This document shows, in pieces, positions 3,401 to 19,784 of a stretch of 26,039 nucleotides of DNA. The notes beneath the pieces were generated by a model. That model made no database searches and was not told the origin of the DNA. It saw nothing but the letters and a program-made list of their open reading frames with translations. The stretch covers positions 1 through 26,039 of IMG/VR virus record IMGVR_UViG_3300037635_003112. One strand, given 5' to 3'. How positions within the stretch are numbered: the first letter of the stretch is position 1; every line of letters begins with the position of its first letter. Made by a program: the position numbers and the translations under genes. The DNA is from a virus.

Positions 3401-6206
3401 TAACATCTTTGGATGTTGCTAAATCCTTAGCATAAAGCTCTGAGTTAGATATATCCGGCACAAGAGTAAATAACTCATCTAGATCATCAAGAGTAATTGT
3501 CTGTCCTGAATGTGACTGTATGACTGTTTCAGCATCTGTCTTTTTTCCTTTCTTTGCAAAAGCCCTGATTACAGTAGCAACATAATCAAGTATAGCTGTT
3601 TTAATTATACCTCTGTTAGCACCTACGTCTGATACAATATCATTACCAAGTAGTTGAGTAAGTTCAATATTAATACTACCTAATAATGATCTTTGTGTTG
3701 CATTTAATTCTTTATTAGCTTCTATAGCATGAAGCCCTTCAAATGTTGAAAGAAATCTATTAAAGTTTAGTATATACGTTATGTATTCTTTTTTACTTTG
3801 ATTCTTAGGATCAGTAGCATATTCTTTAAATGACTTCATCTGTCTTAGAGCATCCTGTAATAATCTTGTGTACACTCTAGACTGTGATATAGGACCTTCT
3901 TGTTTAGCAAGAGCTATGTAACTTAATGTACTTGCTATTTCTTCTTGCACATCTTCTTTTGATCTATCTCTATATATGTTTTCTTTTAATAAATCTTCTA
4001 CTTCTTGTTTGCTCTTTAAAGCTTTTTCATATGTTTCCAAAGCACCAAGAACAGTTCCTTGTTCAGGGTATTCTGAAGGATCAACAGTATCAGCAAAATT
4101 CTCAGCAGATTCTATATCTTGCTCAGCATTATAAATTTGTTCTGCTGCGTCTTTAAGTACTTGATCTGATATTTCTTGTTCTGCTAACTTAGTATCTATA
4201 GCAGGTATTAAGATATTAACCTTTTCTGCATTTTGCTTATACCCATGAGGCTCATTACCATCAAACCTTATTTTCTTTCCATTATAAGAAACTAGTAGAC
4301 TAGCAACATTACCAACACCATACTCAATATCATAGCCCATATTTTCAACCATTCTTTGCAGAAGGTTTACTTCCAAAGCATCTAATGTTTTGAGTGTTAA
4401 AGACTTTGTATCAGTAAGTTTTGCATACATACTTGTTTCTGCAAGGGTTACCTTATCTACATTGTAGGGATTTTTCTTATCACCATATAATATACCCATA
4501 TCTTTAGTAGAAGTAAATATACCTTTGGTCCAAGTCTTAGGGTTTGTCTTTAAAACGTTTGATTCATTTAATTGTATTTGTAAAATTTTAAGTTGTCCTG
4601 TTGATGCAACCAAAACTATGTCTGCTTTAGAAGCTATCTCTGTATATGCGTCATGAAAGACCACATTAGTTAACATAACATCTCCTTGGCTTTTGACTGT
4701 ATTAACCTGGTTTACTATATTACTAAAAGCCTGTTTAGCAACTTCAGTTTCTATATTTGTAATCTTATCAGATATCTTATCAAAAGACTCATGAGATGCA
4801 ATAGCATCTAACATTGTACTTAAATCATTTTTAATAAGCTGTTGTTCTTTAGTTTCTTTTCTACCTAGCGCTTCTTTAGCAGATATAAAAGGCTTTTTAC
4901 TAGTAAGACTATAATATTTACCGTCTTCTTTATTCAAAATAACTAAGTCATCACTGTTAAAAGTAACTCCTTCTGAGGCAGACAAAGTATCTGATTCCTC
5001 TTTAGCACTTTCAACATTGTGAAACAATCTATCAATCATTCTTCTTTGTAGAACTCCTCCTTCTTTTTTTGCTACATTAACTATCTTTTGTTTCTCAGGA
5101 GATAGACTGTATCTTATTCTGCCATTTACAGGTGTATCTAATTTAAATGATATACCATCTGTATTAAGCAGTTTAGCAATGTCACTTAAGGTTGCTTTCT
5201 CAGATATATTATTTACTTCAATAACACGGCCTGTAATTACCTCATTGAGGTTTTTAATAATTTTAGAAAACCAATCTAAAAATTGTTTTATTTTATCAGT
5301 AAAACTTTTAGTTGGGGTGTTCTCATATTCATTATTAAAATGTCTGGATAATGCTTGTGTTACAATTTCTAACTGAACATCTGCTTCTGTAAATCTTCTT
5401 TTACCACGGTAAGCATCTTTTATTTGTTGAGTCATCTCAGGAAAATTCCTTTGTGCCTCATCTAATAAAGAATTAAATAAGTTTTCATTATCCAGTTTTA
5501 CAGCATCTATAAAAGGGTGTAAGACTTCTTCTATTGCTATTTCATCTGTTACTCTGCCATTTATTAATATAGCAGTACCATCCAGATAAAATGAGTTTAT
5601 TTTATTAAAAGGAACTTTTGCTTTTTTCCATTGAGGTATACTAGCATAAAGATTTTCTGCATCCTTTACTGACATTAACTTAACATTAATTCCAGGAAAC
5701 ATTCTCATTAAATGTGAAACTACTTTTCTAGCTCTGGGTTTATCCCATGCCCTAGAAGATTCTAGCATGTCAGTTGCAGAAAAAATAGATGGATCAATAG
5801 ATACAGAAAATGTTTTTTTTGTTTTAACTATATCTACAGACTCAATAGGTATGTTATTTATTTCAAGATATCTATTCAACCTTCTAACATTAGAGTCTAT
5901 AAGTGTTTGACTCGGTTGTAATGTATCTGAATCAGTATTATTGATATAGTACCTACCCCCAAAACTGTGTATTATGTTTAGCCTTCTAAGATTATTTAAT
6001 AATGCAACCCCAAACTCTTCTTGCTTTAAGTTAAAAAGAACTTTTCTATCAGCAATCATATTTTGTGCTTCTACAACAGTAGGTATAGTATCACTTTTTG
6101 AAAGTCTTTGATATTGATTTATTACATTATTTGTTATAATATCAGTCTTGAAAACTTTCTTTAAGTTTTTATACGTTGTTAGATTTTTATTGTGACACTT
6201 TCCCAT
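459..6206 (-). CDS. 1915-residue virion protein with decayed zincin-like and PD-(D/E)XK-like regions
   Basis: Probably an internal or ejected virion protein of crAss-like phages. The N-terminus (MGKCHNKNLTTYKNL) looks like a genuine start of this family rather than an internal site. A zincin-like module occupies about residues 165-330: IEEVLHPFIDA at 225-235 (first His replaced by Glu226, His230 kept), then LEIVTQALSRHF with Glu280, then a tryptophan-containing helix (LDWFSKIIKNL). Residues about 400-640 resemble a PD-(D/E)XK nuclease fold with the catalytic core lost (Asp529 kept; Gln543 and Gln545 where D/E-x-K is expected). Residues about 700-1400 are mostly helical and charged. Hydrophobic stretches follow at about 1440-1475 and 1766-1778 (EAMILLIIHIL), then an acidic run GGDDDD. 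The stop is TAA. The start lies 3 bases after the TAG of the polymerase gene and in the same frame, with no Shine-Dalgarno sequence. The exact role is not known to me. Confidence 0.85.
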   Translation of the reverse strand: MGKCHNKNLTTYKNLKKVFKTDIITNNVINQYQRLSKSDTIPTVVEAQNMIADRKVLFNLKQEEFGVALLNNLRRLNIIHSFGGRYYINNTDSDTLQPSQTLIDSNVRRLNRYLEINNIPIESVDIVKTKKTFSVSIDPSIFSATDMLESSRAWDKPRARKVVSHLMRMFPGINVKLMSVKDAENLYASIPQWKKAKVPFNKINSFYLDGTAILINGRVTDEIAIEEVLHPFIDAVKLDNENLFNSLLDEAQRNFPEMTQQIKDAYRGKRRFTEADVQLEIVTQALSRHFNNEYENTPTKSFTDKIKQFLDWFSKIIKNLNEVITGRVIEVNNISEKATLSDIAKLLNTDGISFKLDTPVNGRIRYSLSPEKQKIVNVAKKEGGVLQRRMIDRLFHNVESAKEESDTLSASEGVTFNSDDLVILNKEDGKYYSLTSKKPFISAKEALGRKETKEQQLIKNDLSTMLDAIASHESFDKISDKITNIETEVAKQAFSNIVNQVNTVKSQGDVMLTNVVFHDAYTEIASKADIVLVASTGQLKILQIQLNESNVLKTNPKTWTKGIFTSTKDMGILYGDKKNPYNVDKVTLAETSMYAKLTDTKSLTLKTLDALEVNLLQRMVENMGYDIEYGVGNVASLLVSYNGKKIRFDGNEPHGYKQNAEKVNILIPAIDTKLAEQEISDQVLKDAAEQIYNAEQDIESAENFADTVDPSEYPEQGTVLGALETYEKALKSKQEVEDLLKENIYRDRSKEDVQEEIASTLSYIALAKQEGPISQSRVYTRLLQDALRQMKSFKEYATDPKNQSKKEYITYILNFNRFLSTFEGLHAIEANKELNATQRSLLGSINIELTQLLGNDIVSDVGANRGIIKTAILDYVATVIRAFAKKGKKTDAETVIQSHSGQTITLDDLDELFTLVPDISNSELYAKDLATSKDVILATMDKIFKFKKQEFLDKVQARKADILDAGKTLLELSGEKDLQRLYDFMLEFDDNKRFTGFYTTRVGQNYLNEKKALRDKLYDANGKPRKYFPIYSLANADPIQIEKNKQLYRDKKAFADFMQGEKLEDGVLTSGTFHQYTQEFIDVRKNYEYAQVWSNGEGVTWIKKPGVPQTAYDVYKNKYYYKVEYTKTFKDANREPTGAIKENKNFDAVKPDYVEVKDERSDTGASLLNPKYEAIMNPTDQLGEARKQYYLKFVEHYEDLLKKLPRSQRMQMLGKVPVIANNFVDEVMTKPSFFARMIPKFLGSIKNLFTETSEQKVVLLNEQGKLVDTLPVFYTGNPRVEGQLEKVYEDIQDLKDKRMNGGINVDQYKKERAVLEAEAAKLRSQPTLGEVSTDMTKSLVKFASMAENFEVMGQIEDTLQAMVQALKMRAYKEPGTALELIAKIKQGSQGFVNTVVGRDSQTGLQSNAEKRAHHWMKMVYYDNDKITKGAVDKLAGGLINLSSLSYVAFNIFGNFNNLTLGQINNYIEAAGGLFYTAGDYTEATKMFYTMGTQGMIERTANAVESAADFTGRVVTGNNLQIKRGNYDPDKALNKYEAIVQYFRMMDDDADIREQFGLGDGETLWSRFTNFGYSFNQGAEYKVQSTVGMAMLLGTQISNGEDSLNLVDALDFDQSTGKVTMREGYDTIINKDGSTTEYTDGWRYEMRNNIREVNKQIHGNYAREDRMVIQNNFTGILMAQFHKWVMPAFRARFQENYYDQNLGWLEGRYTSAFKFLNHIRKTAVTGERGMAKFGLAELGKSFKEEYGLVDGRYDEGKANMMLKNVYRTLGEAMILLIIHILDETLVGGDDDDPILIKKLRNFGAYQANRTYKEMVLFNPLPTLGGYQQVYQMLKSPIAATRTLGELGELLDLTFGTAFGLLVYSDKEFNENSKYVYQNKPKKGMWKLEKNFYDVVPVLYTLQKWKNFEKLESFYIK
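4400..4960 (-). other. PD-(D/E)XK-nuclease-like region with lost catalytic residues
   Basis: Residues about 415-600 of the 1915-residue protein follow the order I associate with phage PD-(D/E)XK modules: a Y-Y-S-L-T segment, helices, then ADIVLVASTGQLKILQIQL. Asp529 matches the first acidic residue, but the expected D/E-x-K strand reads Gln543-Ile-Gln545. The later Q..xY helix reads AETSMYAKL. If the assignment is right, the module cannot be a working nuclease. Domain limits are approximate and the assignment is from motif pattern only. Confidence 0.42.
5367..5531 (-). other. Zincin-like motif with first His replaced (EEVLH ... E)
   Basis: The codons at 5531-5517 read E226-E-V-L-H230, which aligns with H-E-x-x-H but has Glu in the first ligand position. 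A candidate third ligand, Glu280, is at 5369-5367 in LEIVTQALSRHF. The flanking pattern (I-x-E-E-x-L-H-P-F) looks like a family trait rather than a single-phage mutation, as far as I recall. Classical catalytic zinc binding is unlikely. Confidence 0.55.
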
Positions 6207-6212
6207 ATTCTA
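6204..6212 (-). other. In-frame amber junction between the two largest genes
   Basis: Minus-strand bases 6212-6204 read TAG-AAT-ATG. The TAG ends the polymerase gene and the ATG starts the 1915-residue gene, in the same frame (19784 and 6206 both leave remainder 2 on division by 3). The other two stops visible in the window (23265 and 19795), and the stop at 459, are TAA. Readthrough of this one codon would give a continuous protein of about 6441 residues. Confidence 0.95.
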
Positions 6213-9200
6213 TAAATTACATCTTTTGATTTCTTCTAAGAAATTTTTAATTTTTTCCTCTTCTGTCTTCCCGTCATATGACAATATTTTGTTTTCATAT
6301 AATGCTATAAGATCTCCCAAAGATACAATTTTATTATCAGCCAATTTCTTTCTCATCTCAGTAAACTCGTCTGCTATGTATGGCGCATTTATTGTATCAT
6401 TATAAAACTTAGTAATTTGAGGATACTTGCTTTTCTCATCAATGTTTTGATTAAAAAGATCTAGTTTGATTTGCTGATTGTAATCTAAGACTGGTAAATT
6501 CTTTTCTGCTGAAACAACACCTTTTGATTGCTTCTCAATATTATTTACTGCTTCTATATTACCTAGCAAATCATTTGCATTAACAGAGCCAATGTTTTTA
6601 GGTTTTGCTGCTTGATCAATTTGTATAGAAATACTGTTTTCATCAGCGTTAATATTTGAACTTTCATTTCTAAGTGCTTGAGCAGATATAGATTTTGATC
6701 TATCTAAATTAAAATTTTCAATATCCAATGAATCAATTGCTTGATCTATACCAAGCATGTCATCTATATTTCCTATAATATCAGTTTTATTATTAATATT
6801 ATTTCTAACTGTTGCATGCGTATCTCTAGGGCCAAACATGAATCCTATTGCATTTTGATAATTTGATCCCATAAACGGAACTTCATCATACACAAATGAT
6901 GTGCTTTTCTCTTGACCTTCTCTTAATAAAAATAATTTATTTGATCTTTCTACTTTAAATCCAGTATCTGTTTCAGTATAATATCTTAAGTACTTTGGTT
7001 GATTTTCCAAAGTAAATGCACCATCAACCTGTGAATTCTTAGGAGCAGATAATGTTAACACACCTTCTTTACTTAGTGATGTTTTACCTTTAATTGTAGT
7101 TTGTATATTTGATGAACCATCAACTCCTGTTCTAACCTCTTTAAATGTAAGATTAAACATGCCAACATTAGATGATAGGTATCCATTTTCATACTCATTA
7201 AATAACTCATCTTTTGTTAAACCAAAAGCCTCTTTATAGTTTTTATCATTAAGTAAAGAATCTTTAGCAGTCTCTATTTGTTGTAGATAAGAATCCATTA
7301 CAAAAGGAGATATAGCTTCTAATAGGCTATCTTTAGAAAGCTGCAAACCATCTTTAACCATAATATAATTTACAATTGTTGACGCATCTTTTCTTGTTGC
7401 AGGATTACCATACAACTTTGCAAATGAGGTTTGAAGATCTATCTTCTGAAGTTTATTTAGGTTTCTCCATGAATTAGCAGCTAAAATATTAATTCCTGTT
7501 TTGTTAGACTCTGCATTTACAGGTAACTGTGTAACAAATGATTTAAGAAAAAAGTTATCATTGTCTGCAGCATTCAGTCTTCTAATAGAATCATAAATAT
7601 TTTGTGCATCTTGCATAGGGTATATAAGCTTATTGCTTAATGTTCCCGCATCTTTATTCTGTGTGTTTGCATTGTTATGCATATATGCTTTTATAGTAAA
7701 GTAAGAAAGCATATCTCTTCTAATCTTCTGCTCTGTCTCTTCATTAAAAGTTATAGCATCTACAGCAAATGACTTTTCAAGTTTTTCATAGAGCTCATTA
7801 AATACAGGAGTTGCTGTTAAGAATACTTGTGGTAAAAGCTCATTTGTTATCTCATTAAAGATATTTAAATTGGCTGATACAAAACTACTTTCAAGAATAG
7901 GTTTAATATTAATTGCTGGTCTCTCTCCAATTTTTTCTATTGCACCTATTTTCTGCAAGTCTTTTTTAATTGATGCTATGTCAGCAAAGTTTTTACCTAG
8001 CCCTGCACTACCTGATATACCAGTTAATGCATTCATATTACCAATAAATTCATTTATAGTATTTACCGTAGATAAAATTTGTAGCAGTTCTAACTCTTGT
8101 TTGAAAGAACCGCTGCCTTCAACTAAACCACCAAGATCTTCTTTACTTTTTATTCCTGTACCTATATCTATTTTTAGTTTATCATCTTTTAATTGACCCT
8201 GCTTAAATGCTAGCTCTTGATTAACAAGACCTTTAAACCCTGGATCAAACTTCTGTATTTTGTTGGATGCTTGTTCAAATAAATCCCTAGCTATTTTTGA
8301 ATTTAATATAAGTATTGCATCAGACAACGGAACCCCTAAAGCAACCATTGTTACAGCTCTTGGTACTGCCTGTTTGTGCATACCAAGCTTTGACATAAAG
8401 TTCTCTTTAGAGTTATCAGTAAGCATTGTTATTATAGCAGATATTGTATCTTGCTTTCTTTTACCTTCGGTAGTATTAGCTTTGTCAAAACCGGTGTATG
8501 GCTTATTCAGAATACTGAACTGTAATTCTCCAGGTAGTTTTATTTTATACTCACTTAATAAACTGATAGCTAAGTTTGGTGATACAGCTCTACCAATTGC
8601 AGCACCTTTATTATTAATAAATGATATTACTTTACCATTTATATCATCTACATCAACCTCAGAACCATTCATGGATTGAGTATAGATAGGTGCAAATTTT
8701 TCTAAACTTGCATATGCTTCTTTAACTGCATCTAGTGTAGCTGGAGTATAAGAAATATCTTGTACTGCCTCATTACCCATAAGTGCATATCTCATATTGA
8801 GAACCGCATTATTAATAGGTGCTTCATATGGCTCACCATATTCTTCTTTATACTTTTGATACTGAGCCTTAGTTACGGGAAGCCCTAATCTTGTTATAGC
8901 CTTAAGCGCATCATCAGTAAACATTTGATCTATGATAAAGTTATCATCATAGCTGTCTTCCAATCTAGAACCTTGAACCTTAAATGACTTTAATGCCTCA
9001 GCATAGATTGTGTCTTGTTTAACTTTTCTATTGATATATTCAACATAATCTTTATACTGTCTGCCTTGCGTGGCACCATATTGGAAAAACTTTTTGTCTT
9101 CTTTTGAGTAATAGTATTCTAATATTTGAGTATATACTTTGTCAATATCAAAATCCGCTCCTGACACTTCTACAAGTTCAGCTGCAAACATTGCTGATGA

Positions 9201-12200
9201 ACCATAATAAACAGGCATAAAGTCTACAAGTTTTATATTCATTGTAGAATGATTATCTTGTGATGGTATACGCACAGCAAACATTTTTGCAATCATCTCT
9301 GGTATAGGACCGCCTTTTTCTGCAACCTTTTCAAATACATCTTTGAAGTGAGCAGGCATCATGCTCTCTGAATAACGTTGTTTTGTTGATCTACCTTTAT
9401 CATCAAACTCTTGTAGACCATATCTAAGTCTATCTATTACAACTATACCTTCTTTAGGTATTTGTTTTTGAGCTAACTCAGCCATAGAGAATTGTTTAAC
9501 ATCTAAAGCACTCATTCTAACAGCAACAGATTCTCTTATTACTTCATGTCTAAGAGGTAAGAATTTACTATTACCAGCTTCATCTTTTATTTCTTCAACG
9601 CTAAATACTCTTCTATATATGTTATTTCCAAAGTCAGAAACCAGGGCCAAACCATGACCTGGTATCTTTTCTTGGAATACACCTTTAGTGAAGTAACTTA
9701 AAAATAACTGTTCTGCTTTTGCAATAGCCAATGGGTTATTGAAGTCAAACTTAGGTTGCCCTGATACAGGATCAATACTAAAAAACTCAATAACATTACT
9801 GCTAGATTTAGATGCTTTTAAAGAATTAATTGCATAACTTAAAAATGCTGCAAGATCAGGTGTAAGATTATTTCTTTCTTTACTTACATTAAATTCTGAC
9901 ATTATACCATCAAAAGTAAATACTAGATTTCTTTTATTTTTAAATTTAAGAACAACTCTTTTCTTCAATGCATCATTATAGAATGCTTTAACTTTCTTTA
10001 TAGTTGTAAGAGCTGGATAACCAGGTATGTTTACTTGTTGTGAGTCCTCTTGTTCATTAGTAGCTAATAGCTTTATTTGACTTACTTCAGTAACAGAGTT
10101 TTTATTACTTGGGTTTACAACTTGTAGTCCAAAATCTTTAGCACTTATTATAGAAGATGGCTCTGATATACTTTCATTTAAGAGCTGTATATTTTTCTTA
10201 GCCATTTTCTGTGCACTAACAGGTGTTGCAATTGCCACGTTACCTGTATTTCTTTGAATAGTTTCAAGGTCTTCTCTTAGTTTATGAAGCTCTGGTCTTA
10301 ATGGGTTCTCTTCCCAAATAACATTACCGTTATTATCTTTCTTCCCTGTATCTATAGATGTAAATGAAGGTGATAAAACAAAAGCAGACATTTTAATAAA
10401 CTGCTCTCCGTCAAAATGAACAAACTTCTTAGAGTTTAACATCCCGTCTGTTTGTATTAATCCTCCTTCATCATAGATATCACTTGATGTAATTTTTTCT
10501 CCTCGTTCTATTTTAGTTATAATGTCAGCTTGTGACTTAGTCAATTTACCTAAACCAAACCAGAAGTTTCTAAATGCTTTAGTAGTTAAGTAAACCTGTG
10601 CATCTGCTCTTTCAATACCTTGACCAGTAAACCAAGAACTCAAAATAGGATCATCAAATGTTAATACTGATATATTTTCAGTCATGGTATCAACACCTAA
10701 ATTGGCATCAAGCATGTTAGTATATACATTATCAAATGCTGCATTCTGACCCTTAGCTCTTTTAATCTTATCAACTGAGTCTTTAAGTATTAATGCCTGA
10801 TCACCAAGAAGAAGTTCATTTATAGATTTTGTATTTATATAATCATTAAAAAATATCTGTCTTAAGTTATAATCTAAATCTTTTCTTAAGTTTAGTTTTT
10901 CTGCAGCAGCTACAGCATTCGCTCTATCCACACCAGTTCTGTCTTGAACTATACCAGATTTTATTTCATTAGATATTTTATTATCTATCTTAAGAGTATC
11001 ATATAAAGACTTAAATCTTTTATACTTAATTTCTAAATTACTTCTTAACTGATCTTTAAATTGTTTTTCTGATAATTCATTATTTTTTAATGCTTCTTTA
11101 AAAGTAAAGTGCTCTTCAAGATTTTCTCCAACTTTTTGTTGAGCAGAAACCTCCAAAGATTTTCTTAACTCTTCAGAAATTAAATCTGAATTATTTACAA
11201 AACTAAGTTTTCTATCATCATATCCTTTGTATGAATCTTTTGTTTTGTTTTCACCTTGCTCTCTAACAATTCTATCATACTCATTTTTTACAAAATCAAA
11301 TGATGCATCTATTATAGTGTCTGTTATTTTTCCATCTTTACCAGATACTGCAATTGTAACTGGTAACGTTGTCATATCATTAGTATTAGATGATTCTAGA
11401 ATTCTTATCTGAATAGGAGAGGTAGCTATTTGTTCAACTAGACCAGTTTCTTGGTTTACTACAACAGACTTCTTAAGCTTATTTGTTTTTGGGTTAAAGT
11501 CTAATGTATAATTGTTAATTAAGTTTGACATGAACTGACCAGCTGTGAAGCTTCCATACTCTGTTGTATTCAACACTCCACTTATATATTGATCATAATC
11601 AACATCTCTATCTAATGTTTTAACTTCCGCAACACCAGATACTCTTTGTACTGACAGCATATTGGCATCAGACATTGCTTTAAACTTATCATTATTTAAA
11701 AGGTAATTATTTGACAAGTATTCTTTTTCTGATAACTCTTGTAATTTTGCCTGATAATTTAATTCCTTTATTCTTTTTAAATGGTATGTAGGCTTTTGAT
11801 GAGCATTTACTAAATCACCATTTACATTTTTAAATACGGATAAACCAATGCTCTCATCAAATACTGCATTGTTAACTGCCATAGACTTTAGTCTACCGGC
11901 TGCACCTTTCTCATCACTATATAGTTCATGAGCTGTCTCTTTACTTTTTATAATTTCAGATATAAAATAAAGTTGCTCAGCCGTAATTGGCTCTGCATTT
12001 GCGTTTAATGATAAAAGTAATTCTTGATCTGGGTGTTCTTCATTTGTACCATTAGACTTTAGTATACTGAATTTTATATACTGTGGAGATAAACTTATAC
12101 CTGTGTCATCAAATATTTTTTTAGCTGCACTTTTACTTGAGTCATCTAATTTTTGATCATTAAACTTTTTACCACTTAGCAGTAACTGTCTGAGTCTACT

Positions 12201-15200
12201 TATAGATTTTACTGCATCGGCTCTTTCTTGGGGTTTTATCTTCCACTCTTGTAATAATGAAGTATAAGCCTGGCTCCATAGAGACAACTGTGTATTTGCA
12301 TCATCTCTTTCTGCAGCAGAAAAGGTAATTAAACTACCATTATTATCTGTCTTTTGAAATAACCACTCAACTTTAAAATTGCTAAATGCTTTTAGCTGGT
12401 TGAACAAAATACTATTGTTAATCTTAGTTGGTAATACCATATCTGATATTGACTCACCCATAGTTATACCTAAGTCAGTAAATATTTTGTTAACTGCTGC
12501 TTTTGTATCTGGATTTGAGGTAGAAAATAAAGCTAAAGACTGAACAATTTCCATAGGCTCAGTTCTGCCTTCCATAGCTTTCATGATACCGTTATAAGTG
12601 TTATATACATTTATAGGTACAATTAACTTTTCCTCTCTATTATCTTTTCTTGTTATTGTTGTATTACCAAATATATCTGACTCAGCTCTTGTTATTGTAG
12701 CTAAATACTTTCTAAAGTAAGATGACAGTGAGCTAAAGCTACCGTTGAGGTATGCTTCTTTGCCATACTGAGTTACATTTCTTAGACCTTGATCCTGCTC
12801 AAGACTATCCGCTTCTTCTACCTCTTCTGCTTTTTGAAAGTCTATTGTATCTAGAACATCAAAAGCAGCTTTATAATAAGGTGACTCAGTAAGGTCTTCA
12901 TAGCTATTAGAGTATATAAAAGAATCTGTAATCTTTTGTAAGAGTTTAGATCTTTCATCATCATTCATATTACTTTCATTAGATGGATTGTCAACACTAT
13001 ATAACCACTCAAAGTCATCTAATATTTCTGACATTCTATCTTCTCTGGAAACTTTAGGATCTTGTTGCTGTCTTTCTACAAATGTAGCCGCCATAGTTAA
13101 AACTATATTATTAGCTACACTACTATCCAAAAATAGTTGACCTTTACTTGTACCTACTTGTACTTGCTCATATGGGATAACAGCATTTGCTATTACTATC
13201 TCGTTGCTATAGTTATCCGTGAACTCATTTGATACTGACTCAGCCTGTGCATATTTACCAGAGTCTATGTTTTCATATAAACTTTGCAATTCAGTCTTTG
13301 TGTACTTAGAGAATATACCTTTTAACCAATCAAGAAGTTTAGTGAACCATGACTTAACAACAGAATCTGTATTTGTATCTCTTGGATTTAATTTAAATTT
13401 ATTAAACTCATCCGCCATATATTCTTCATAGAAAAGATTTTCTAATTCTTTTAAACTTAAGCTATCATATTGCTCAGATGTATTTTTAAACTTCTGTAAT
13501 TCTTTAGCAAATGATTTATTTTCTTTTCTAAGCTGAGCTCTTACTTCTTTTCTAGCAATTGCTCTTAACTTAACTTGCTCTTCTGGTGTTAATAATAATC
13601 TGTATACTGCATGAAATGCTTCATGATATTTAAACGGATTGCTTGCTCCAGTATATATTGTTCCACCTATTTTAAGATTTCCTGCTAATGCATTCATACT
13701 TAATGCAAAGCCACCTACTCTTACTCCACCTTTTAAAAGGTTACTCCCTAATACGTTTATATCAGCAAGTGTAATAGAATCAGGTAAGTTGTTTTGTGCC
13801 CATACAGTAAACTCATTTAGAGATTGTACATCTTGTGCTGTAAAGTTTGTAACTACTTTATTTGAAATCAGTTTATCTCTAGCTTGCTTAAGTTTCTGGT
13901 ATACTGGGTCATTTCTTAATGCTTTAGTTAACCCTCTAGCACCCACTTCTTTTTTAGTAGTGTCTTCTATCTCTTTTAATTTTACATTAAGTTGATCTAA
14001 CGGACTCTGTGTTATAGATGCTAAGTCAATAGAACCATCTGTTGATGTTGCTGTTTTCTCTTCTCCAACAGTTATAGGGTTTCCTTCTGCATCAGTGTAA
14101 CCCAATGTTTCAGTAAAGACTGCATTTGTAGTAATCTTATTTCCTAAATTAAGTATCTTATTAGTATTATCTTCTGCAGATGAATTTACATCTTTATCAT
14201 AACTTGCTTGATTAGCAGCACTTGTAGTTTCAAAATTTAATTTAGAATTACGTCTGACTCTAGGAGTAAGCTTTGTACCAAGAGATTCTAGTGTAGTTTG
14301 TACATTAGCATTTAATGATAATGATGTTGTAAATTGATCCAAAGAAATATTCACTGTACTATAACCAGCAACATCTAAGTCAGCATTGATTTTTTTAAGT
14401 AAGTCATTCAGTTGCTTCAAAGGATCTGATGAAGCTTTTATTTCTGAAAGCTCAAGATATGTGCTTGTTATTTTACTTCTATTTTTTTCTACTACTGCAC
14501 GTATTTTTCCAAAGGGTGCAACATTAATAGTAACATCAAATCCAGGAACCATTGCTATCCTGATATTCTTATTATTTTCTAGATTAAATACATCAATTTC
14601 TTGACCAACAGTTTGTTGTGTCTGACCATTAATATAATTTCCTTTTTCATTAATTGAAGGCTTTATATTTTTTTCTTTATTTCCTTCTTTTAGTTCTATA
14701 ACCTTGTTCATCATTCCGGTTACAAAATCACTAATAATGGTTTTGTCTTGACCTATAGTCTTAGCCGTTGCTAATGTATAAACTCCATTAGGTTGTTTAA
14801 TAACATACTGATATCTTTCGGTATAACCTAGACTATTAGGACCAAGCATTTTACTCCATAAACCATTTTGTAAACCTTCTCTAGCTTCCTTCTCTAATAT
14901 TTTAAGTTCATCATCTATTAAATTACTTATTACTTCTGGTTCTCCAATAGATTCACCATTCTTATCTCTTGTGATATCATAAATAAGAATACCACCTTTT
15001 CCATCTGAAGAAAGGCCGGCCTTATAGAAGTCACTCAATACTGTTAATGGATTGTCTGTATTATAATCAGGATAACCATCTTCTCTTACAATTGAAAAGC
15101 CGTTCTTCTTTAAACTTTCAAAAGTAATATCAGTTATGCCTGAAGCATATTGTTTATTTAAAAAGTTTACTAAAACATTTTTCTTAGTTGTAGAATCAAT

Positions 15201-18200
15201 TGCTTTTGCAAGCTCTTGTTCAATTGTTGTTTTAGATGTATCTACATTAAATATATTTTTAGCCAGATCTACAGGCATTGTAGAAGGAGTGTATTCTTTG
15301 TTACCTACTTTATATATATAAGAACTATTTGCAATGTTACCTATGATACCATTGTTCTTATCACTAATAGGTTGTAACCCTACGGCTTGTAATTTTTGGT
15401 TAACATCAAGAAGAGTAAGCTCATCTTTAATTCTTATCTGTATATTATAAGGTTCTCCTTTTGTAAGTATATATTTATTTGGTAGAGCTGTACCACTATA
15501 ACTAAATTGTGTTGCTGCTTTATTAGGATTAGGTTTTACATCAATTACTAAATTATTATAAACGTTATCAGTTAGGTTGTTTATGATCCAGCTTAAACGT
15601 TTTTCAGCACTTTCCTTTGATTCACCTGCATTTTCTCTTACATAAATATTAGCAATGTTATCTGCTGTTATTTTAGCAGTACCATCAGGAACTTTATCAA
15701 CAATAAGTTTTTCATCATAGTAACGCTCACTAAAATCTAATTCAGACTCTGTTATTGCTTTTTGTTTTCTATCAGCATAAGGTTTACCATAATCTTCAGG
15801 AGTAACTAACTGAATGTTATCTCCTAAAGGTCTATTTACTGCAACTCTGAATTCTTCTCCTGTAACCTTATCGTATACAAATTGACCTCTTATAAGTGTA
15901 AGACCATCAAACTTAAACGTAGAACCATCTGAATACTCTTCCTCTAGTATAGTAAACTGATCTAAGGCTGCCCTAGCATTATTGTAAACGCCTTGACCAG
16001 ATATTGCATCTAACTGTACTGCTGATAAATCTGATCCATTGTTGTTTATTATTTTATATAATTTTTGATCTTCGTCAGCTACATCAATTGATATAACTCT
16101 GAAATTAACTCCATCACCACCCTTAATAGGTTTTAAATTACTTTTCTTATTGATATTCCTGTTTGTAAAAATATCATAAGATAAATCTAGCTGTCTTAGT
16201 ATATCTTCTATAATAGGATTTTCAATAGCTTCTCTACTATCTAGATACTCTTGGAAACCTTTTTCTTCATCTATATCTCCTGCAGATGGTATTCTTGACT
16301 TTTCAACTAAATTGCCATATTCTTCAACTGTAGTTGAATAACCTTTTGCCCATATTCTTTTTATAGCAATAAAAGCTTTTTTAATTTTAAGAGCTTCGTT
16401 TGTTGCTGACCATTGTGAAAAATCTAATGGGTCTGAGGACTTGTCATTAGCTCTGTACTTTAGATACTGCTGTTTAAGTATTTCATTTAATATGTTTGAA
16501 TCAACCTGTTCATCTACCTCAACATCTACTCCAGCTTGTTGTAGTGTTTCCTCAATATCTAATATTTCTGCATTTGCTACAGCTTCATCAGATACTTCAC
16601 TCTCTCTTTCTTGTTGAACTTTTACTCCAATGTAATTTTTAATTATTGCTACTGCTTTTGCTAATGACTCAGCATCTTTTATAACATTTGGATTTAAACG
16701 TCTGCCGTTTTGTATAAGCTTACCTTCATTTACTGCTTGAAGTAAATCCTCTAAACTAACTTCATCTTGTAAAAATTCTCTTGTGAAGTTTTCTTCCATT
16801 AGAATATCTACTTCAGCTAATCCATTTAATAATTTAGTTTTTTCAACACTATCTATAAATGCTTCAGTCTGTCTTTTATATATTGTCTTTCTATTTTTAT
16901 ATATATACTCAAGATATTCCGTAGCTCTTTCTTCTAATTGCTCTTGTACTTTTGGATTAGTTAAAAGGTCAACTGATTTACTAAATGCAGAAGCATCTTC
17001 TTGTAATGCTACATGATCAGTAATTAGAATTAAAGCTTCTTTTACCTTACCGTAGTCTACAAAATCACTAGACTTGTCTGCCAATGTTTCAATATAGTTT
17101 TTAAACGCTGCATCTAACCCGGATGTTTTTACTTTGTTTCTAGCAAAGTAACCTTTTTTTGTTAAGTTTTTAGGATCAGTAAATATCTTAAGATACTTTT
17201 CTAATGCTTTCTTTTTCTTTTGTTTTTTTGATTTTAATTTCTTCCCTTCTGGAGTATTCTCATATGTGTCTATCTCTGTTTGTAATGTGTTGATCTCTTG
17301 TTCTATTGTATCTTTAGTGTATAGTAATCTTACATCAGTTGCTCCTTGATTGGAAATAAGTGGTTCCGTTTCTAGTCTATTTTCTATTTCAGACTGTCTT
17401 ATTGCTGCATTTTTAAAAGACTCATTAGTAAACATATAAAGCAATTTTGTTTGCTCATATGCTTGAAGTTTGAAAGATTCTTTGATAAACTCTTCAGTGC
17501 CTGGATCAAACTGTTTAGGATCATATTTAGTTGGGAAAAGACCACCCATATTATCAGTGACAGTTTTCCCAAAAGAATCTATTCTTTCTAATTGAGTTGA
17601 TATTTTATTTCTTAATGATTTAGCACTTCTACCACTTCCTTTAAATGCATCAACTAAGTCTTTATCATTTAGTTTATTTAAATTTACAAGATTGTCTTTT
17701 AAGAATACAATAGAGCCTGTATCAAATGCTTTTTTTAATGCATCAAACTCAGCAAAATTTCTATTATCAAAGTACTCTTTCTTATCACCCATTGCAATAT
17801 TTAAGTTCATAAGACCTTGCTGTTGTTTTTGTAAAGACAACTTTAATTGGTTCTCACTTAATATAGCTTCTAATGGTTTTTCAGCATTCATCTGCTGATC
17901 ATTAATCTTATTGATGTAATTGACAACATCGTCTACTGCTTTTTCTCTTGCAGCATTATACTCAGTATAAGGATCTGCTGCTGTCTCACCTTCTTTAACT
18001 GTACTTTTATTATAAACAGATTGGCCTTTTCTAAATAGAGCAGGCATACCTTGAAATAATACTTGTTGATAAGGGCCAGCTAAACCACCCATAAAAAATC
18101 CAGATGCAAACACTTCTGCCCCTTCTTTTGAAAATACATTACCTACAGCCTGTTGACCAAAGGCACCATAGGTAGATGGTGCACCTGCTAAAGGATCTCT

Positions 18201-19784
18201 TAATAAAGAACTATAATATCCAACAGTAGCTGCAGATATTGCTTCCTGAGAAACCTCTTGAACACCTTCAGCCAAATTAGCTGCTGCGTACTTTAACATC
18301 TGGCTACCCAATACTTTAGGAACACCTTTCCAACCCTGGGCTTTAAATGCTAATTTAATTTCTTGAGGTACACGTTTAAATAAATACTTTTCTGCTTTTA
18401 TTGCTTTACCACCTTGTCCTCTTAAAACTCTTTGTGTTTCTTTACCTAGCTTTCTTTGCCAACCTCCAAATGCATTTTTTAATACTATTCTATTTGATGC
18501 ATGTATAATTAAGAAGTTTCTCATTTGAGCTTTGAAAGCTCCTTCAGCAGCTTTTATTCTTGTATCTTTAGCTTGCTGTTCTGTAATACCATTCCCGGCT
18601 CCATTCTTATAATTGAAATAATTTAAACCATTCATTTCAATTTGATTAAATACCATACCTGCTTCCATTTTAGACTCAGACATTGAAGCATTAATCATTC
18701 TCATATCTCTATAAAACGCACCAAAGACATGTGTATTCTTTCCTATGTTAAGTAAATTCTTTGCTGTGTTACCTGTGGTCTTCCAGTTTTGAATAGCATG
18801 AGTTAACTCTGGTGCTACAAATTTTAATCCTGCTGTAGCAACACCTCTTGATACATTATAAAAACTTCTTGCATTCTCAATATTTTTTAGTGTTTTTACT
18901 AAATCTCTTGATGCTTTTGCTGCTCTAGTTACGTCAAAAAGATTACCTACTTTCCTTAAGTTGGCCAGAGTTCCAGCAGCAAATGCACCCCAACTAGAAC
19001 CCCCACTTGGTATTGTACCGGCAGCTGCAGCCGCAGCCATTACAACTTCTTCAAAGGCTACTGATGCTACAATCCCTGCAGTATAACCAAAATTAAGACC
19101 TAAGTTTCCTGCTTTACCAATAAAAGAACCATCAGTACTACCTCCTATTCTCATTGCATCTTCCATTTCATATGCAGAAGTTAGATCTGGAGAACTCAAA
19201 TAATCATCACCATCAAAGAAATCCGCAATTGATCTGTAACTTGATACAAACCCTGTACCAGCAAGATGTTGAAACTGTTCCCATCCTCTTTGCCAACCAT
19301 CCCAAGCTGTCATGTTTTGGTTATAGATAGTATCCATGTCTGCATATGGTGTAAAGCCTATATCACCAAAAGCGTCTGACTTATACTGTCTATCAAAATT
19401 TAAAGATCTAACATTTTCAAATATAGGTTTAGCTAAAGCACCCTCTTCCTTTACCATAGGAGCTCCAATTGATTTTATCAGGCTATTCATTTCAGACTCA
19501 TAAGTATCAGTATTCTGATTTGGTAGAGTTGAAAATGTTGGAGAAGGTATGTCACTATTAATATTACCCATATTAATAGGTCCAAATTTATCTATATCAG
19601 TTTGATAAGCAGATATCATATTTTTATACTCATCACTAACAGCTGTTGGATCATCATCCATTATATCAGCAATAGATACATAAGGCTTAGATGAATCAAT
19701 AGGATTCAAAGCTGTAGTATCTGCTAGTATTTGATCTGTTAAGTTACTCCCTGAACTAGGTAAATTTTTGTTTACTTCTTCCAT
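6210..19784 (-). CDS. Giant virion RNA polymerase (4524 residues) with zincin-like domain
   Basis: Likely crAss-like virion RNA polymerase, ejected with the genome to transcribe early genes. Residues 1-130 are polar and probably disordered. About 135-600 hold a helical part with GFTPYADMDTIYN, tryptophan-rich helices and an Ala/Gly-rich hydrophobic segment near 228-262, as expected of an ejection module. A Lys-rich patch lies at about 847-860. Residues about 1250-1950 contain beta-rich linkers. A zincin-like domain follows: H2054-E-A-F-H2058, then E2120-E-Y-M-A-D2125. The polymerase occupies about 3060-4250: Lys3193 in TPVSAQKMAKKN (beta-like barrel), R3505 in RIPSQDNHS, D3544-F-D-I-D3548 (Mg-binding beta'-like barrel), GAAIGRAV near 3731 and TDNSKEN at 3789-3795. 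It starts 10 bases after the previous stop (no Shine-Dalgarno) and ends in TAG. Polymerase identity is strong, zincin identity good, and the ejection role inferred. Confidence 0.92.
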   Translation of the reverse strand: MEEVNKNLPSSGSNLTDQILADTTALNPIDSSKPYVSIADIMDDDPTAVSDEYKNMISAYQTDIDKFGPINMGNINSDIPSPTFSTLPNQNTDTYESEMNSLIKSIGAPMVKEEGALAKPIFENVRSLNFDRQYKSDAFGDIGFTPYADMDTIYNQNMTAWDGWQRGWEQFQHLAGTGFVSSYRSIADFFDGDDYLSSPDLTSAYEMEDAMRIGGSTDGSFIGKAGNLGLNFGYTAGIVASVAFEEVVMAAAAAAGTIPSGGSSWGAFAAGTLANLRKVGNLFDVTRAAKASRDLVKTLKNIENARSFYNVSRGVATAGLKFVAPELTHAIQNWKTTGNTAKNLLNIGKNTHVFGAFYRDMRMINASMSESKMEAGMVFNQIEMNGLNYFNYKNGAGNGITEQQAKDTRIKAAEGAFKAQMRNFLIIHASNRIVLKNAFGGWQRKLGKETQRVLRGQGGKAIKAEKYLFKRVPQEIKLAFKAQGWKGVPKVLGSQMLKYAAANLAEGVQEVSQEAISAATVGYYSSLLRDPLAGAPSTYGAFGQQAVGNVFSKEGAEVFASGFFMGGLAGPYQQVLFQGMPALFRKGQSVYNKSTVKEGETAADPYTEYNAAREKAVDDVVNYINKINDQQMNAEKPLEAILSENQLKLSLQKQQQGLMNLNIAMGDKKEYFDNRNFAEFDALKKAFDTGSIVFLKDNLVNLNKLNDKDLVDAFKGSGRSAKSLRNKISTQLERIDSFGKTVTDNMGGLFPTKYDPKQFDPGTEEFIKESFKLQAYEQTKLLYMFTNESFKNAAIRQSEIENRLETEPLISNQGATDVRLLYTKDTIEQEINTLQTEIDTYENTPEGKKLKSKKQKKKKALEKYLKIFTDPKNLTKKGYFARNKVKTSGLDAAFKNYIETLADKSSDFVDYGKVKEALILITDHVALQEDASAFSKSVDLLTNPKVQEQLEERATEYLEYIYKNRKTIYKRQTEAFIDSVEKTKLLNGLAEVDILMEENFTREFLQDEVSLEDLLQAVNEGKLIQNGRRLNPNVIKDAESLAKAVAIIKNYIGVKVQQERESEVSDEAVANAEILDIEETLQQAGVDVEVDEQVDSNILNEILKQQYLKYRANDKSSDPLDFSQWSATNEALKIKKAFIAIKRIWAKGYSTTVEEYGNLVEKSRIPSAGDIDEEKGFQEYLDSREAIENPIIEDILRQLDLSYDIFTNRNINKKSNLKPIKGGDGVNFRVISIDVADEDQKLYKIINNNGSDLSAVQLDAISGQGVYNNARAALDQFTILEEEYSDGSTFKFDGLTLIRGQFVYDKVTGEEFRVAVNRPLGDNIQLVTPEDYGKPYADRKQKAITESELDFSERYYDEKLIVDKVPDGTAKITADNIANIYVRENAGESKESAEKRLSWIINNLTDNVYNNLVIDVKPNPNKAATQFSYSGTALPNKYILTKGEPYNIQIRIKDELTLLDVNQKLQAVGLQPISDKNNGIIGNIANSSYIYKVGNKEYTPSTMPVDLAKNIFNVDTSKTTIEQELAKAIDSTTKKNVLVNFLNKQYASGITDITFESLKKNGFSIVREDGYPDYNTDNPLTVLSDFYKAGLSSDGKGGILIYDITRDKNGESIGEPEVISNLIDDELKILEKEAREGLQNGLWSKMLGPNSLGYTERYQYVIKQPNGVYTLATAKTIGQDKTIISDFVTGMMNKVIELKEGNKEKNIKPSINEKGNYINGQTQQTVGQEIDVFNLENNKNIRIAMVPGFDVTINVAPFGKIRAVVEKNRSKITSTYLELSEIKASSDPLKQLNDLLKKINADLDVAGYSTVNISLDQFTTSLSLNANVQTTLESLGTKLTPRVRRNSKLNFETTSAANQASYDKDVNSSAEDNTNKILNLGNKITTNAVFTETLGYTDAEGNPITVGEEKTATSTDGSIDLASITQSPLDQLNVKLKEIEDTTKKEVGARGLTKALRNDPVYQKLKQARDKLISNKVVTNFTAQDVQSLNEFTVWAQNNLPDSITLADINVLGSNLLKGGVRVGGFALSMNALAGNLKIGGTIYTGASNPFKYHEAFHAVYRLLLTPEEQVKLRAIARKEVRAQLRKENKSFAKELQKFKNTSEQYDSLSLKELENLFYEEYMADEFNKFKLNPRDTNTDSVVKSWFTKLLDWLKGIFSKYTKTELQSLYENIDSGKYAQAESVSNEFTDNYSNEIVIANAVIPYEQVQVGTSKGQLFLDSSVANNIVLTMAATFVERQQQDPKVSREDRMSEILDDFEWLYSVDNPSNESNMNDDERSKLLQKITDSFIYSNSYEDLTESPYYKAAFDVLDTIDFQKAEEVEEADSLEQDQGLRNVTQYGKEAYLNGSFSSLSSYFRKYLATITRAESDIFGNTTITRKDNREEKLIVPINVYNTYNGIMKAMEGRTEPMEIVQSLALFSTSNPDTKAAVNKIFTDLGITMGESISDMVLPTKINNSILFNQLKAFSNFKVEWLFQKTDNNGSLITFSAAERDDANTQLSLWSQAYTSLLQEWKIKPQERADAVKSISRLRQLLLSGKKFNDQKLDDSSKSAAKKIFDDTGISLSPQYIKFSILKSNGTNEEHPDQELLLSLNANAEPITAEQLYFISEIIKSKETAHELYSDEKGAAGRLKSMAVNNAVFDESIGLSVFKNVNGDLVNAHQKPTYHLKRIKELNYQAKLQELSEKEYLSNNYLLNNDKFKAMSDANMLSVQRVSGVAEVKTLDRDVDYDQYISGVLNTTEYGSFTAGQFMSNLINNYTLDFNPKTNKLKKSVVVNQETGLVEQIATSPIQIRILESSNTNDMTTLPVTIAVSGKDGKITDTIIDASFDFVKNEYDRIVREQGENKTKDSYKGYDDRKLSFVNNSDLISEELRKSLEVSAQQKVGENLEEHFTFKEALKNNELSEKQFKDQLRSNLEIKYKRFKSLYDTLKIDNKISNEIKSGIVQDRTGVDRANAVAAAEKLNLRKDLDYNLRQIFFNDYINTKSINELLLGDQALILKDSVDKIKRAKGQNAAFDNVYTNMLDANLGVDTMTENISVLTFDDPILSSWFTGQGIERADAQVYLTTKAFRNFWFGLGKLTKSQADIITKIERGEKITSSDIYDEGGLIQTDGMLNSKKFVHFDGEQFIKMSAFVLSPSFTSIDTGKKDNNGNVIWEENPLRPELHKLREDLETIQRNTGNVAIATPVSAQKMAKKNIQLLNESISEPSSIISAKDFGLQVVNPSNKNSVTEVSQIKLLATNEQEDSQQVNIPGYPALTTIKKVKAFYNDALKKRVVLKFKNKRNLVFTFDGIMSEFNVSKERNNLTPDLAAFLSYAINSLKASKSSSNVIEFFSIDPVSGQPKFDFNNPLAIAKAEQLFLSYFTKGVFQEKIPGHGLALVSDFGNNIYRRVFSVEEIKDEAGNSKFLPLRHEVIRESVAVRMSALDVKQFSMAELAQKQIPKEGIVVIDRLRYGLQEFDDKGRSTKQRYSESMMPAHFKDVFEKVAEKGGPIPEMIAKMFAVRIPSQDNHSTMNIKLVDFMPVYYGSSAMFAAELVEVSGADFDIDKVYTQILEYYYSKEDKKFFQYGATQGRQYKDYVEYINRKVKQDTIYAEALKSFKVQGSRLEDSYDDNFIIDQMFTDDALKAITRLGLPVTKAQYQKYKEEYGEPYEAPINNAVLNMRYALMGNEAVQDISYTPATLDAVKEAYASLEKFAPIYTQSMNGSEVDVDDINGKVISFINNKGAAIGRAVSPNLAISLLSEYKIKLPGELQFSILNKPYTGFDKANTTEGKRKQDTISAIITMLTDNSKENFMSKLGMHKQAVPRAVTMVALGVPLSDAILILNSKIARDLFEQASNKIQKFDPGFKGLVNQELAFKQGQLKDDKLKIDIGTGIKSKEDLGGLVEGSGSFKQELELLQILSTVNTINEFIGNMNALTGISGSAGLGKNFADIASIKKDLQKIGAIEKIGERPAINIKPILESSFVSANLNIFNEITNELLPQVFLTATPVFNELYEKLEKSFAVDAITFNEETEQKIRRDMLSYFTIKAYMHNNANTQNKDAGTLSNKLIYPMQDAQNIYDSIRRLNAADNDNFFLKSFVTQLPVNAESNKTGINILAANSWRNLNKLQKIDLQTSFAKLYGNPATRKDASTIVNYIMVKDGLQLSKDSLLEAISPFVMDSYLQQIETAKDSLLNDKNYKEAFGLTKDELFNEYENGYLSSNVGMFNLTFKEVRTGVDGSSNIQTTIKGKTSLSKEGVLTLSAPKNSQVDGAFTLENQPKYLRYYTETDTGFKVERSNKLFLLREGQEKSTSFVYDEVPFMGSNYQNAIGFMFGPRDTHATVRNNINNKTDIIGNIDDMLGIDQAIDSLDIENFNLDRSKSISAQALRNESSNINADENSISIQIDQAAKPKNIGSVNANDLLGNIEAVNNIEKQSKGVVSAEKNLPVLDYNQQIKLDLFNQNIDEKSKYPQITKFYNDTINAPYIADEFTEMRKKLADNKIVSLGDLIALYENKILSYDGKTEEEKIKNFLEEIKRCNL
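8400..10210 (-). other. RNA polymerase catalytic core with D-F-D-I-D motif
   Basis: Residues about 3190-3795 of the giant protein hold the recognisable catalytic landmarks. These are Lys3193 (codon 10208-10206), Arg3505 (9272-9270), the D-F-D-I-D loop (9155-9141) in SGADFDIDKVYTQ, a G-R pair at 3731-3732 and Asp3790/Lys3793 in a segment resembling the bridge-helix side of multi-barrel polymerases. Two-barrel polymerases of the YonO/QDE-1/crAss-like group use a DxDxD loop to bind the catalytic metal. All three aspartates are present here, so the enzyme is predicted to be active. Confidence 0.87.
13410..13625 (-). other. Zincin metallopeptidase motif HEAFH ... EEYMAD
   Basis: Codons 13625-13611 encode H2054-E-A-F-H2058, a complete H-E-x-x-H zinc-binding helix. 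E-E-Y-M-A-D at 2120-2125 (13427-13410) supplies the likely third ligand about 62 residues later. A following segment (WFTKLLDWLKGIF ... ENIDSGKYAQ) resembles the C-terminal helix found after zincin domains in phage polyvalent proteins. All residues needed for activity appear present. The substrate is unknown; self-processing of the giant protein or cleavage of a host target are both possible. Confidence 0.75.
17223..17229 (-). other. Possible slippery heptamer A-AAA-AAA in a Lys-rich patch
   Basis: Seven consecutive A's on the coding strand fall in the register TCA-AAA-AAA (S852-K853-K854), the layout of a -1 slippage heptamer. The -1 frame runs eleven codons and then hits TAA, which would release an N-terminal product of about 865 residues. 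I found no clear stimulatory stem-loop. The run may simply encode the basic patch (K-K-L-K-S-K-K-Q-K-K-K-K). Confidence 0.3.
19000..19102 (-). other. Ala/Gly-rich hydrophobic segment of the giant protein
   Basis: Residues about 228-262 (GYTAGIVASVAFEEVVM followed by six alanines and a Gly/Ser-rich turn) form the most hydrophobic stretch in the N-terminal third. A second such stretch (GFFMGGLAGPYQQVLF) is near residue 565. Ejected phage proteins such as T7 internal core proteins and the N4 polymerase are known to cross or enter the envelope. By analogy this part may insert into the host membrane. Confidence 0.45.

Follow-up and report, generated by a model that had tools for sequence, protein, structure and literature searches.

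A zincin-type domain and a crAss-type RNA polymerase joined in one 4,524-residue chain, and a cysteine pattern at the chain junctions of crassvirus cargo proteins

The ordered passage of multi-hundred-kDa proteins through a narrow tail is an open question in crassviruses, which are abundant gut phages, and in N4, and a locus whose single frame unites zincin and RNA polymerase motifs raises it in a particular form: of what is such a chain composed, and how would it be carried into the cell and taken apart there? We examined a window that is an entire 26,039-base virus record, probably a genome fragment, and that contains five gene-like open reading frames (ORFs), all on the minus strand (Table 1). 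A preliminary description of this DNA had placed HEAFH, EEYMAD and DFDID in one uninterrupted frame, and this was confirmed: the motifs start at residues 2054, 2120 and 3544 of P0001 (6210-19784, minus), which is ATG-initiated and unbroken through 4,524 amino acids under table 11. As a lone query, P0001 gave no match in Pfam, none that was credible in the PDB, and one short weak match in PHROGs. By homology, P0001 was shown to correspond, in crAss001 names, to a gp47-gp50 fusion and P0002 to the gp49 partner, residues 1 to ~2177 being classed as gp47-type (N module and zincin) and residues 2202-4150 as gp50/gp66-type polymerase. For P0002, hhalign gave 99.9% with crAss001 gp49, 98.4% with phi14:2 gp65 and 100% with cr4_1 gp27. 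Homology of P0003 and P0004 to crAss001 gp45 and gp46 was considered and set aside, there being no profile support despite a similar gene order.

Table 1 Features of the window (positions are those of the window; residues are those of P0001 unless another protein is named)
Feature	Position	Strand	Basis or remark
P0005	3-365	minus	holin-like, match under Pfam cutoff
P0002, 1,915-aa partner, homologue of crAss001 gp49 and phi14:2 gp65	459..6206	minus	hhalign 99.9%, 98.4%
Sole P0002 Cys codon TGT, P0002 residue 4	6195..6197	minus	
P0001, 4,524-aa fusion: N module, zincin, gp66-type RNA polymerase, variable C-terminus	6210..19784	minus	
Variable C-terminal region, residues 4151-4524	6213..7334	minus	
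Sole P0001 Cys codon TGT, residue 4522 (third from end)	6219..6221	minus	
gp66-type two-barrel RNA polymerase (predicted), residues 2202-4150	7335..13181	minus	6VR4 structure matches, HMM E 1.6e-16
Catalytic DFDID, residues 3544-3548	9141..9155	minus	motif conservation, 6VR4 profile alignment
Fusion linker between zincin and polymerase, residues 2178-2201	13182..13253	minus	model confidence low at 2163-2199
N-x-F-T, linker residues 2186-2189	13218..13229	minus	candidate cleavage or docking motif
Zincin-type domain, residues 1979-2177	13254..13850	minus	hhalign to crAss001 gp47, cr4_1 gp26
EEYMAD, residues 2120-2125, presumed third zinc ligand	13410..13427	minus	17/17 in alignment
HEAFH, residues 2054-2058	13611..13625	minus	17/17 in alignment; 95/96 ORFs
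Residues 721-1978, clade-conserved, without recognised fold	13851..17624	minus	no Pfam or PHROG match there
N-module core, residues 122-720	17625..19421	minus	crAss001 gp47/cr128_1, hhalign 97.6%
Most hydrophobic N-module segment, residues 236-256	19017..19079	minus	Kyte-Doolittle 1.69, two Glu
P0003	19795-23205	minus	
P0004	23265-26027	minus	

Relatives were collected by scans of viral contigs, which gave 22 loci through P0001, 80 kept of 163 through a zincin-side alignment, and 79 loci from the best 80 of 305 confirmed stretches through a polymerase alignment, many contigs being common to the scans. Part of the loci were retrieved by patterns that hold the scored motifs, and a set retrieved by the polymerase pattern only was counted in addition. 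Identity to P0001 ranged from 100% (an identical protein on a separate contig, L005) through ~95% over the best segment (the protein of L002, L003 and L006) down to ~22%. In eight long relatives searched with crAss001 queries, the Crassvirales marks TerL (best E 9.9e-23) and portal (best E 9.4e-32) were each found in six, with no match to them in the remaining two; neither was seen in the window fragment itself, and a single crAss001 major capsid protein sequence as query matched none of the eight. Eight GTDB contigs held relatives, including those of Spirosoma oryzae and S. terrae strains, and a crAss-like transcription block was seen in contigs of these strains (L195, L198, L287); one scan for further Spirosoma-type relatives brought up nothing beyond the IMG/VR copy of S. 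terrae.

Frame breaks inside the polymerase of some relatives (L080, L087, L141) might suggest that two genes had been joined by an assembly artefact, an explanation that is already refuted by independent contigs and to which we leave practically no chance: there are 95 distinct HEAFH-bearing ORFs longer than 2,000 aa, 89 of 96 HExxH ORFs also carry the polymerase motif, and the fusion is present in the cr4_1 genome too, with TAG read as Gln. A programmed frameshift at these breaks was rejected, as they fall inside conserved polymerase sequence and are indel-like.

A 40-sequence profile of residues 2955-4152 matched phi14:2 gp66 (6VR4, 6vr4_A) with E 1.6e-16 and DFDID aligned, and the model predicted for the same residues (pLDDT 82.5, pTM 0.80) matched 6VR4 835-1960 with Z 17.3 over 936 residues, the next matches being the QDE-1, RDR2 and P23-45 polymerases (Z ~10-14). 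These matches uphold the crAss-type two-barrel polymerase first proposed for this frame. In the model of slice 1900-3050 (pLDDT 73.9, pTM 0.60), residues 2202-3044 aligned with 6VR4 97-922 (Z 18.7 over 640 residues); this stretch is thus polymerase, and the earlier suggestion that residues 2200-3050 may hold undescribed domains falls away. Residues 2202-4150 together span 97-1960 of the 2,166-residue 6VR4 entry, whose first 96 and last ~200 residues are unmatched. The proposed structural check, a double barrel, came out in favour of the polymerase through the 6VR4 matches, from which we infer the barrels, and a two-barrel fold is predicted across the polymerase region. The N4-type alternative, a T7-like single-subunit polymerase domain, was not found in this region, which is assigned to the two-barrel fold. 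One giant (L066) carries, near residue 3787, the catalytic loop GSDHDGD and not GADFDID, a form that we take to be nearer the cellular one. By analogy with the records and papers on crAss001 and phi14:2, the P0001 polymerase would be packaged in the virion and transcribe early genes.

Ahead of the polymerase, residues 1979-2177 are classed by their HExxH and second-helix Glu as a zincin-like metallopeptidase, a putative peptidase. With hhalign, this domain gave 98.4% to the C-terminal zincin of crAss001 gp47, 97.8% to cr128_1 and 98.7% to cr4_1 gp26, and no detectable likeness to crAssphage gp45 (7.9%) or crAss002 gp32 (21.5%). Against the PDB, the best match of its profile was weak (E 0.032, Pro-Pro endopeptidase 6fpc) and aligned the two motifs in register. 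In the model, helices at 2052-2064 and 2111-2132 carry the HExxH and the downstream Glu, and the part just before HEAFH is of low confidence with no sheet predicted there. No zincin was among the 50 matches listed for slice 1900-3050 in each structure search, which is not evidence against the fold. Homology to the N4 zincin was rejected (12% and 1.7%), only the layout being alike.

HEAFH and FYEEYMAD were identical in 17/17 members of a 17-member alignment, and SGADFDIDK in all 14 with letters there, so that the motifs in P0001 are not due to chance; a conserved HExxH...Glu domain ahead of the polymerase, as had been claimed, is kept through the clade. Within the 79 loci of the polymerase-only set, HExxH and the third-ligand motif stood in the same ORF in 68, four had HEAFH with a variant third motif, five were cut by the contig end, one (L141) was a broken frame with the zincin on the upstream ORF, and one (L163) had no zincin. 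Among 96 distinct HExxH-bearing ORFs longer than 2,000 aa, 95 had HEAFH, and the odd one was again L163, with an HEYQH inside its polymerase part. Relative to L003, dN/dS was 0.053 for residues 2000-2200, 0.056 and 0.078 for two polymerase stretches, 0.138 for residues 1-1980 and 0.295 for residues 4150-4524.

The N-module core (122-720) has its counterpart in the N-terminal part of crAss001 gp47/cr128_1, and residues 361-755, overlapping this core, gave 98.3% with a Spirosoma terrae protein in hhalign. The membrane-like N-terminus proposed earlier fared less well: a single segment (236-256) attains a Kyte-Doolittle value of 1.69, with two Glu in it, and N-terminal membrane insertion was not retained on this one weak segment. 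Similarity to gp47 ends at about residue 2177 and similarity to the polymerase begins at 2202. In the linker between them, the Asn of N-x-F-T was identical in 33/33 aligned members, with Phe and Thr kept in at least 90%; in the searched stretch, N-x-[FYM]-[TVI] occurred in 95/95 distinct HEAFH giants, 86 of them with the N-x-F-T form. The motif was absent from two Spirosoma sequences, with degenerate zincins, and from cr4_1 and crAss001, with intact ones. We claim no more for this motif than candidacy as a site of cutting or docking. The C-terminal region was variable. In L003, ~146 residues are inserted after P0001 residue 4407 (near giant residue 4411), and L002, L006 and L007 are likewise longer. 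A NADAR domain was considered for the insert and dropped, there being no such match listed in Pfam (E 0.1), PHROGs (E 0.1) or the PDB (E 10). In two other giants (L010, L016), this region contains a DUF7831 domain (E 1.6e-16 and 3.4e-20).

Polymerase, zincin and partner are known from other phages, and a zincin-polymerase chain has already been deposited as cr4_1 gp26. With N for the N module, Z for the zincin (z when degenerate), Pol for the polymerase, S for the partner and a slash for a gene break, crAss001 and cr128_1 are arranged as N+Z / Pol / S (cr112_1 alike by annotation), the window clade and cr4_1 as N+Z+Pol / S, S. terrae as N / z+Pol / S, and crAssphage, crAss002 and cr107_1 as N+Z / Pol+S, the N and Z of these last being taken from annotation, HExxH or position. 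The polymerase of phi14:2, gp66 (6VR4), shares the two-barrel fold and the DFDID loop with P0001 over 97-1960; gp66 stands alone as a chain of 2,180 aa that has a Cys close to either end, whereas in P0001 the polymerase is fused behind the zincin and only the C-terminal Cys remains. That phi14:2 gp67 is a zincin-less N module was not adopted, the match being suggestive only (77.9% over 151 columns). crAss001 (Kehishuvirus primarius) has the same parts as the window (gp47 as N module and zincin, gp50 as polymerase, gp49 as P0002), in three genes on two strands versus two co-directed genes; gp47, gp49 and gp50 were detected in its virions by mass spectrometry, according to the pertinent passage of PMC10172136, and the transcription block is drawn in Fig. 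3 of PMC7886860, as its text indicates. In crAssphage (BK010471), gp44 has a homologous polymerase (E 1.9e-19) with the partner fused to it (99.1%), and gp45 is labelled 'RNAP associated protein fused to zincin protease'; unlike in the window, the break lies between zincin and polymerase, and the N part (3.2%) and zincin (7.9%) of gp45 are matched to those of the window by annotation and position only.

The same fusion occurs in cr4_1 gp26 (Buorbuivirus hominis, NC_055893; 'hypothetical protein'), a 4,491-aa chain that, like P0001, unites zincin and polymerase, with HEAFH at 2002, DFDID at 3433 and a Cys fourth from the end. Unlike P0001, it is open only with TAG as an amino acid and has seven Cys, and its N part has no detectable similarity to that of the window (0.2%). 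N4 vRNAP (Schitoviridae) also resembles P0001 as a packaged giant with an ejection-type N-terminal domain (NTD), a polymerase and an HExxH...Glu domain, as the parts of PMC12633501 and PMC5512222 on this protein describe, and we found that domain kept in 30/30 aligned relatives; its polymerase is T7-like, however, its order is another, its zincin is not detectably homologous (12%) and it has no Cys. The main text of the open papers searched yielded no account of the fusion, nor of the cysteine pattern to which we now turn.

P0001 and P0002 each contain one Cys, at the ends that face each other (Table 1). We counted 89 complete giants, distinct by containment and not independent, and found a Cys in the last five residues in 85, in 83 as the only Cys of the chain; the four without it were L091 and three that seem frame-broken within the polymerase (L080, L087, L185). 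The next ORF, found for 84 giants, had a Cys within its first eight residues in every case, and partner ORFs taken by profile had an early Cys in 85 of 86 (any of the first three Met allowed as start), in 68 of 71 complete ones as the only Cys. We extended the count to 12 genomes (eight named crassviruses, the window, S. terrae, S. oryzae, whose N gene was not found, and L199), with chains assigned by homology, partly by gene order (crAssphage, crAss002, cr107_1, phi14:2 gp67 and the ORF upstream in L199), and with unannotated starts set at the first Met. A Cys lay within 10 residues of the end at 34/35 junction ends and at 0/23 outer ends (Fisher 2.7e-15, no true probability since the genomes are related). 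The one miss was the annotated start of crAss002 gp33 (L027); the cr107_1 start is 32 residues shorter and begins MSC, and the crAss002 start may have been annotated 32 codons too early. Five GTDB loci lay outside this tally, three of them cut (L193, L194, L196), and the two that could be added brought the count to 37/39 and 0/26: L192 has a Cys at both ends, and L197 has it in the partner and not at the end of the polymerase ORF, 506 bases upstream. In S. terrae, where the gene break precedes the zincin, the Cys pair sits at this break between N and z. Two genomes fetched after the rule had been noted, cr107_1 and cr112_1, obey it, each being congeneric with a genome already seen.

Where polymerase and partner are fused (crAssphage gp44, crAss002 gp33, cr107_1), no Cys was present near the fusion point, estimated at ~2,600-2,800 by back-projection. 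These chains contain eight, seven and six Cys, respectively, the 3'-cut chain of L196 has three, and the one of the seven in cr4_1 gp26 that comes nearest, at 2180, is ~180 residues past HEAFH, near and not at the joint of zincin and polymerase. Internal Cys thus persist in fused chains outside the clade, and the window clade is the only one in which the fused junction has lost its Cys cleanly. In hand-picked other CDS, Cys made up 1.10% in crAss001 (27 CDS) and 0.92% in phi14:2 (22), and low Cys was wider than the cargo: of the 24 further ORFs listed in the surroundings of five giants, 13 had none. In the window, P0003 has no Cys, and the only Cys of P0004 are a close pair, at 581 and 588. 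In phage N4 (L206), vRNAP (3,500 aa, one chain), gp51 and gp52 are without any Cys. A low number of Cys would suit a protein that has to unfold on its way through a tail.

Cys that survive where chains face each other, and are missing from the outer ends, fit interchain disulfides that would make the cargo one ordered string. On the strength of this pattern we suggest, tentatively, that the cargo chains of crassviruses may be joined head to tail by disulfides, pass through the phage tail one after another and come apart when these bonds are reduced in the cytoplasm. For the window clade, the same tentative picture would have the first two cars fused and their pair gone, with only the pair to the partner remaining and the zincin as uncoupler of a link that, being a peptide bond, reduction cannot undo. 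Terminal Cys might instead bind metal, take lipid or anchor the chains separately to another virion protein, which we regard as a serious possibility, if short of probable: the distance of the Cys from the end varies from 1 to 10 residues, and the lone Cys at the end of crAssphage gp47 faces no Cys at the following start. Separate anchors, however, do not predict the difference between junction ends (34/35) and outer ends (0/23). The passages of the crAss001 structure paper that deal with disulfides place them in the tail, the fibre hubs and gp57 and name none in the cargo. Thioredoxin-like genes are listed in the crAssphage and cr128_1 records, which is compatible with disulfides, weakly so.

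Our best overall explanation, combining fusion, cargo train and release, we hold to be somewhat probable. P0001 and P0002 would be capsid cargo ejected through the tail, by analogy with crAss001, and may leave as a single covalently joined train, to which we give somewhat less than an even chance: N module first, then zincin, polymerase and partner, held by peptide bonds where genes are fused and by a disulfide between lone terminal Cys where they are split. In the reducing cytoplasm the partner would detach, and the zincin would cut the chain of which it is part, within the 2178-2201 linker or else towards the N module, freeing the polymerase for early-gene transcription. Release driven by the zincin, as first proposed for this frame, is possible; self-cleavage, which Iyer 2017, in the section concerned, had already proposed for the zincin of the N4 polymerase, we consider doubtful in itself at either of these places. 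A self-cutting role is consistent with a zincin that is intact where N is peptide-bonded and decayed in S. terrae, where N is a separate gene and the first His is replaced by Glu, the remaining domain being kept. Self-cleavage being necessary is opposed by crAss001, where the zincin is intact and the polymerase already a separate chain, by N4, whose polymerase is packaged unprocessed (Iyer 2017, same section), and by L163, whose N part (crAssphage-type, 97.0%, L163:4664-14545) is joined to the polymerase with no HExxH ahead of it; a profile of the window-type zincin, which does not extend to the crAssphage type, found none in the 70.8-kb record of L163. The lack of N-x-F-T in cr4_1 and crAss001, with their intact zincins, also counts against our best explanation, as do the Cys kept inside fused chains outside the clade, the Cys-poor neighbouring ORFs, the misses at the crAss002 gp33 start and the L197 polymerase end, and the unpaired end of crAssphage gp47.

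L163 and the unprocessed N4 polymerase equally suit a chain that is never cut, in which the polymerase would work while joined and anchored at the envelope and the zincin would be structural or regulatory. Such a chain is modelled on proposals for N4 vRNAP, whose NTD has been drawn as its anchor and which, in recombinant form, was not degraded, and for the tape-measure-fused polymerase of P23-45, whose authors hypothesised a pore-associated polymerase. We judge this possible, with the greater weight against it: the clade keeps both His, the Glu and also the Glu of the third ligand, at a dN/dS of 0.053, which would be needless in a purely structural domain. It is unlikely, in our estimate, that the zincin is instead an injected effector that cuts host proteins and not its own chain, one of the options for such domains in the relevant part of Iyer 2017. 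Retention of the domain in crAss001 gp47, with the polymerase already apart, argues for an effector, while the loss of the first His in S. terrae, with N separate, fits a role in cis better, albeit in one genome; the S. oryzae zincin likewise lacks the first His, and its N gene was not located in the fetched stretch. If the zincin cuts its own chain, as in our best explanation, a candidate role would be at hand for a domain whose retention in two systems with unrelated virion polymerases has had no explanation. Two cargo proteins, as the fusion shows, can be synthesised as a single chain. The Cys pattern predicts which residue pairs are joined and bears on the question whether covalent coupling sets the order of the cargo; the junction cysteines are a new observation, and the bonds, if they exist, would be a real surprise.

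The partner showed sequence changes of its own. At residues 505-560 of P0002 (window 4527-4694), QIQLN stands where 10/10 other aligned partners have DLK[TV][ST], the core of what we take to be a PDDEXK-type nuclease, and the nuclease site looks decayed in P0002. A remark on PDDEXK in the text of PMC7886860 agrees with the family name of the partner nuclease. The C-terminal domain (CTD) of N4 vRNAP was tried as a P0002 homologue and rejected (profiles 32.5% with cr4_1 gp27 and <1% for three others tried). In cr4_1 gp27, only a small second zincin is similar to the N4 vRNAP zincin (93.7%), and that of phi14:2 gp65 gave 67%. This second zincin reads HEILH in cr4_1 gp27 and HEIMH in phi14:2 gp65, and in P0002, at residues 226-230 (window 5517-5531), it is degenerate (EEVLH).
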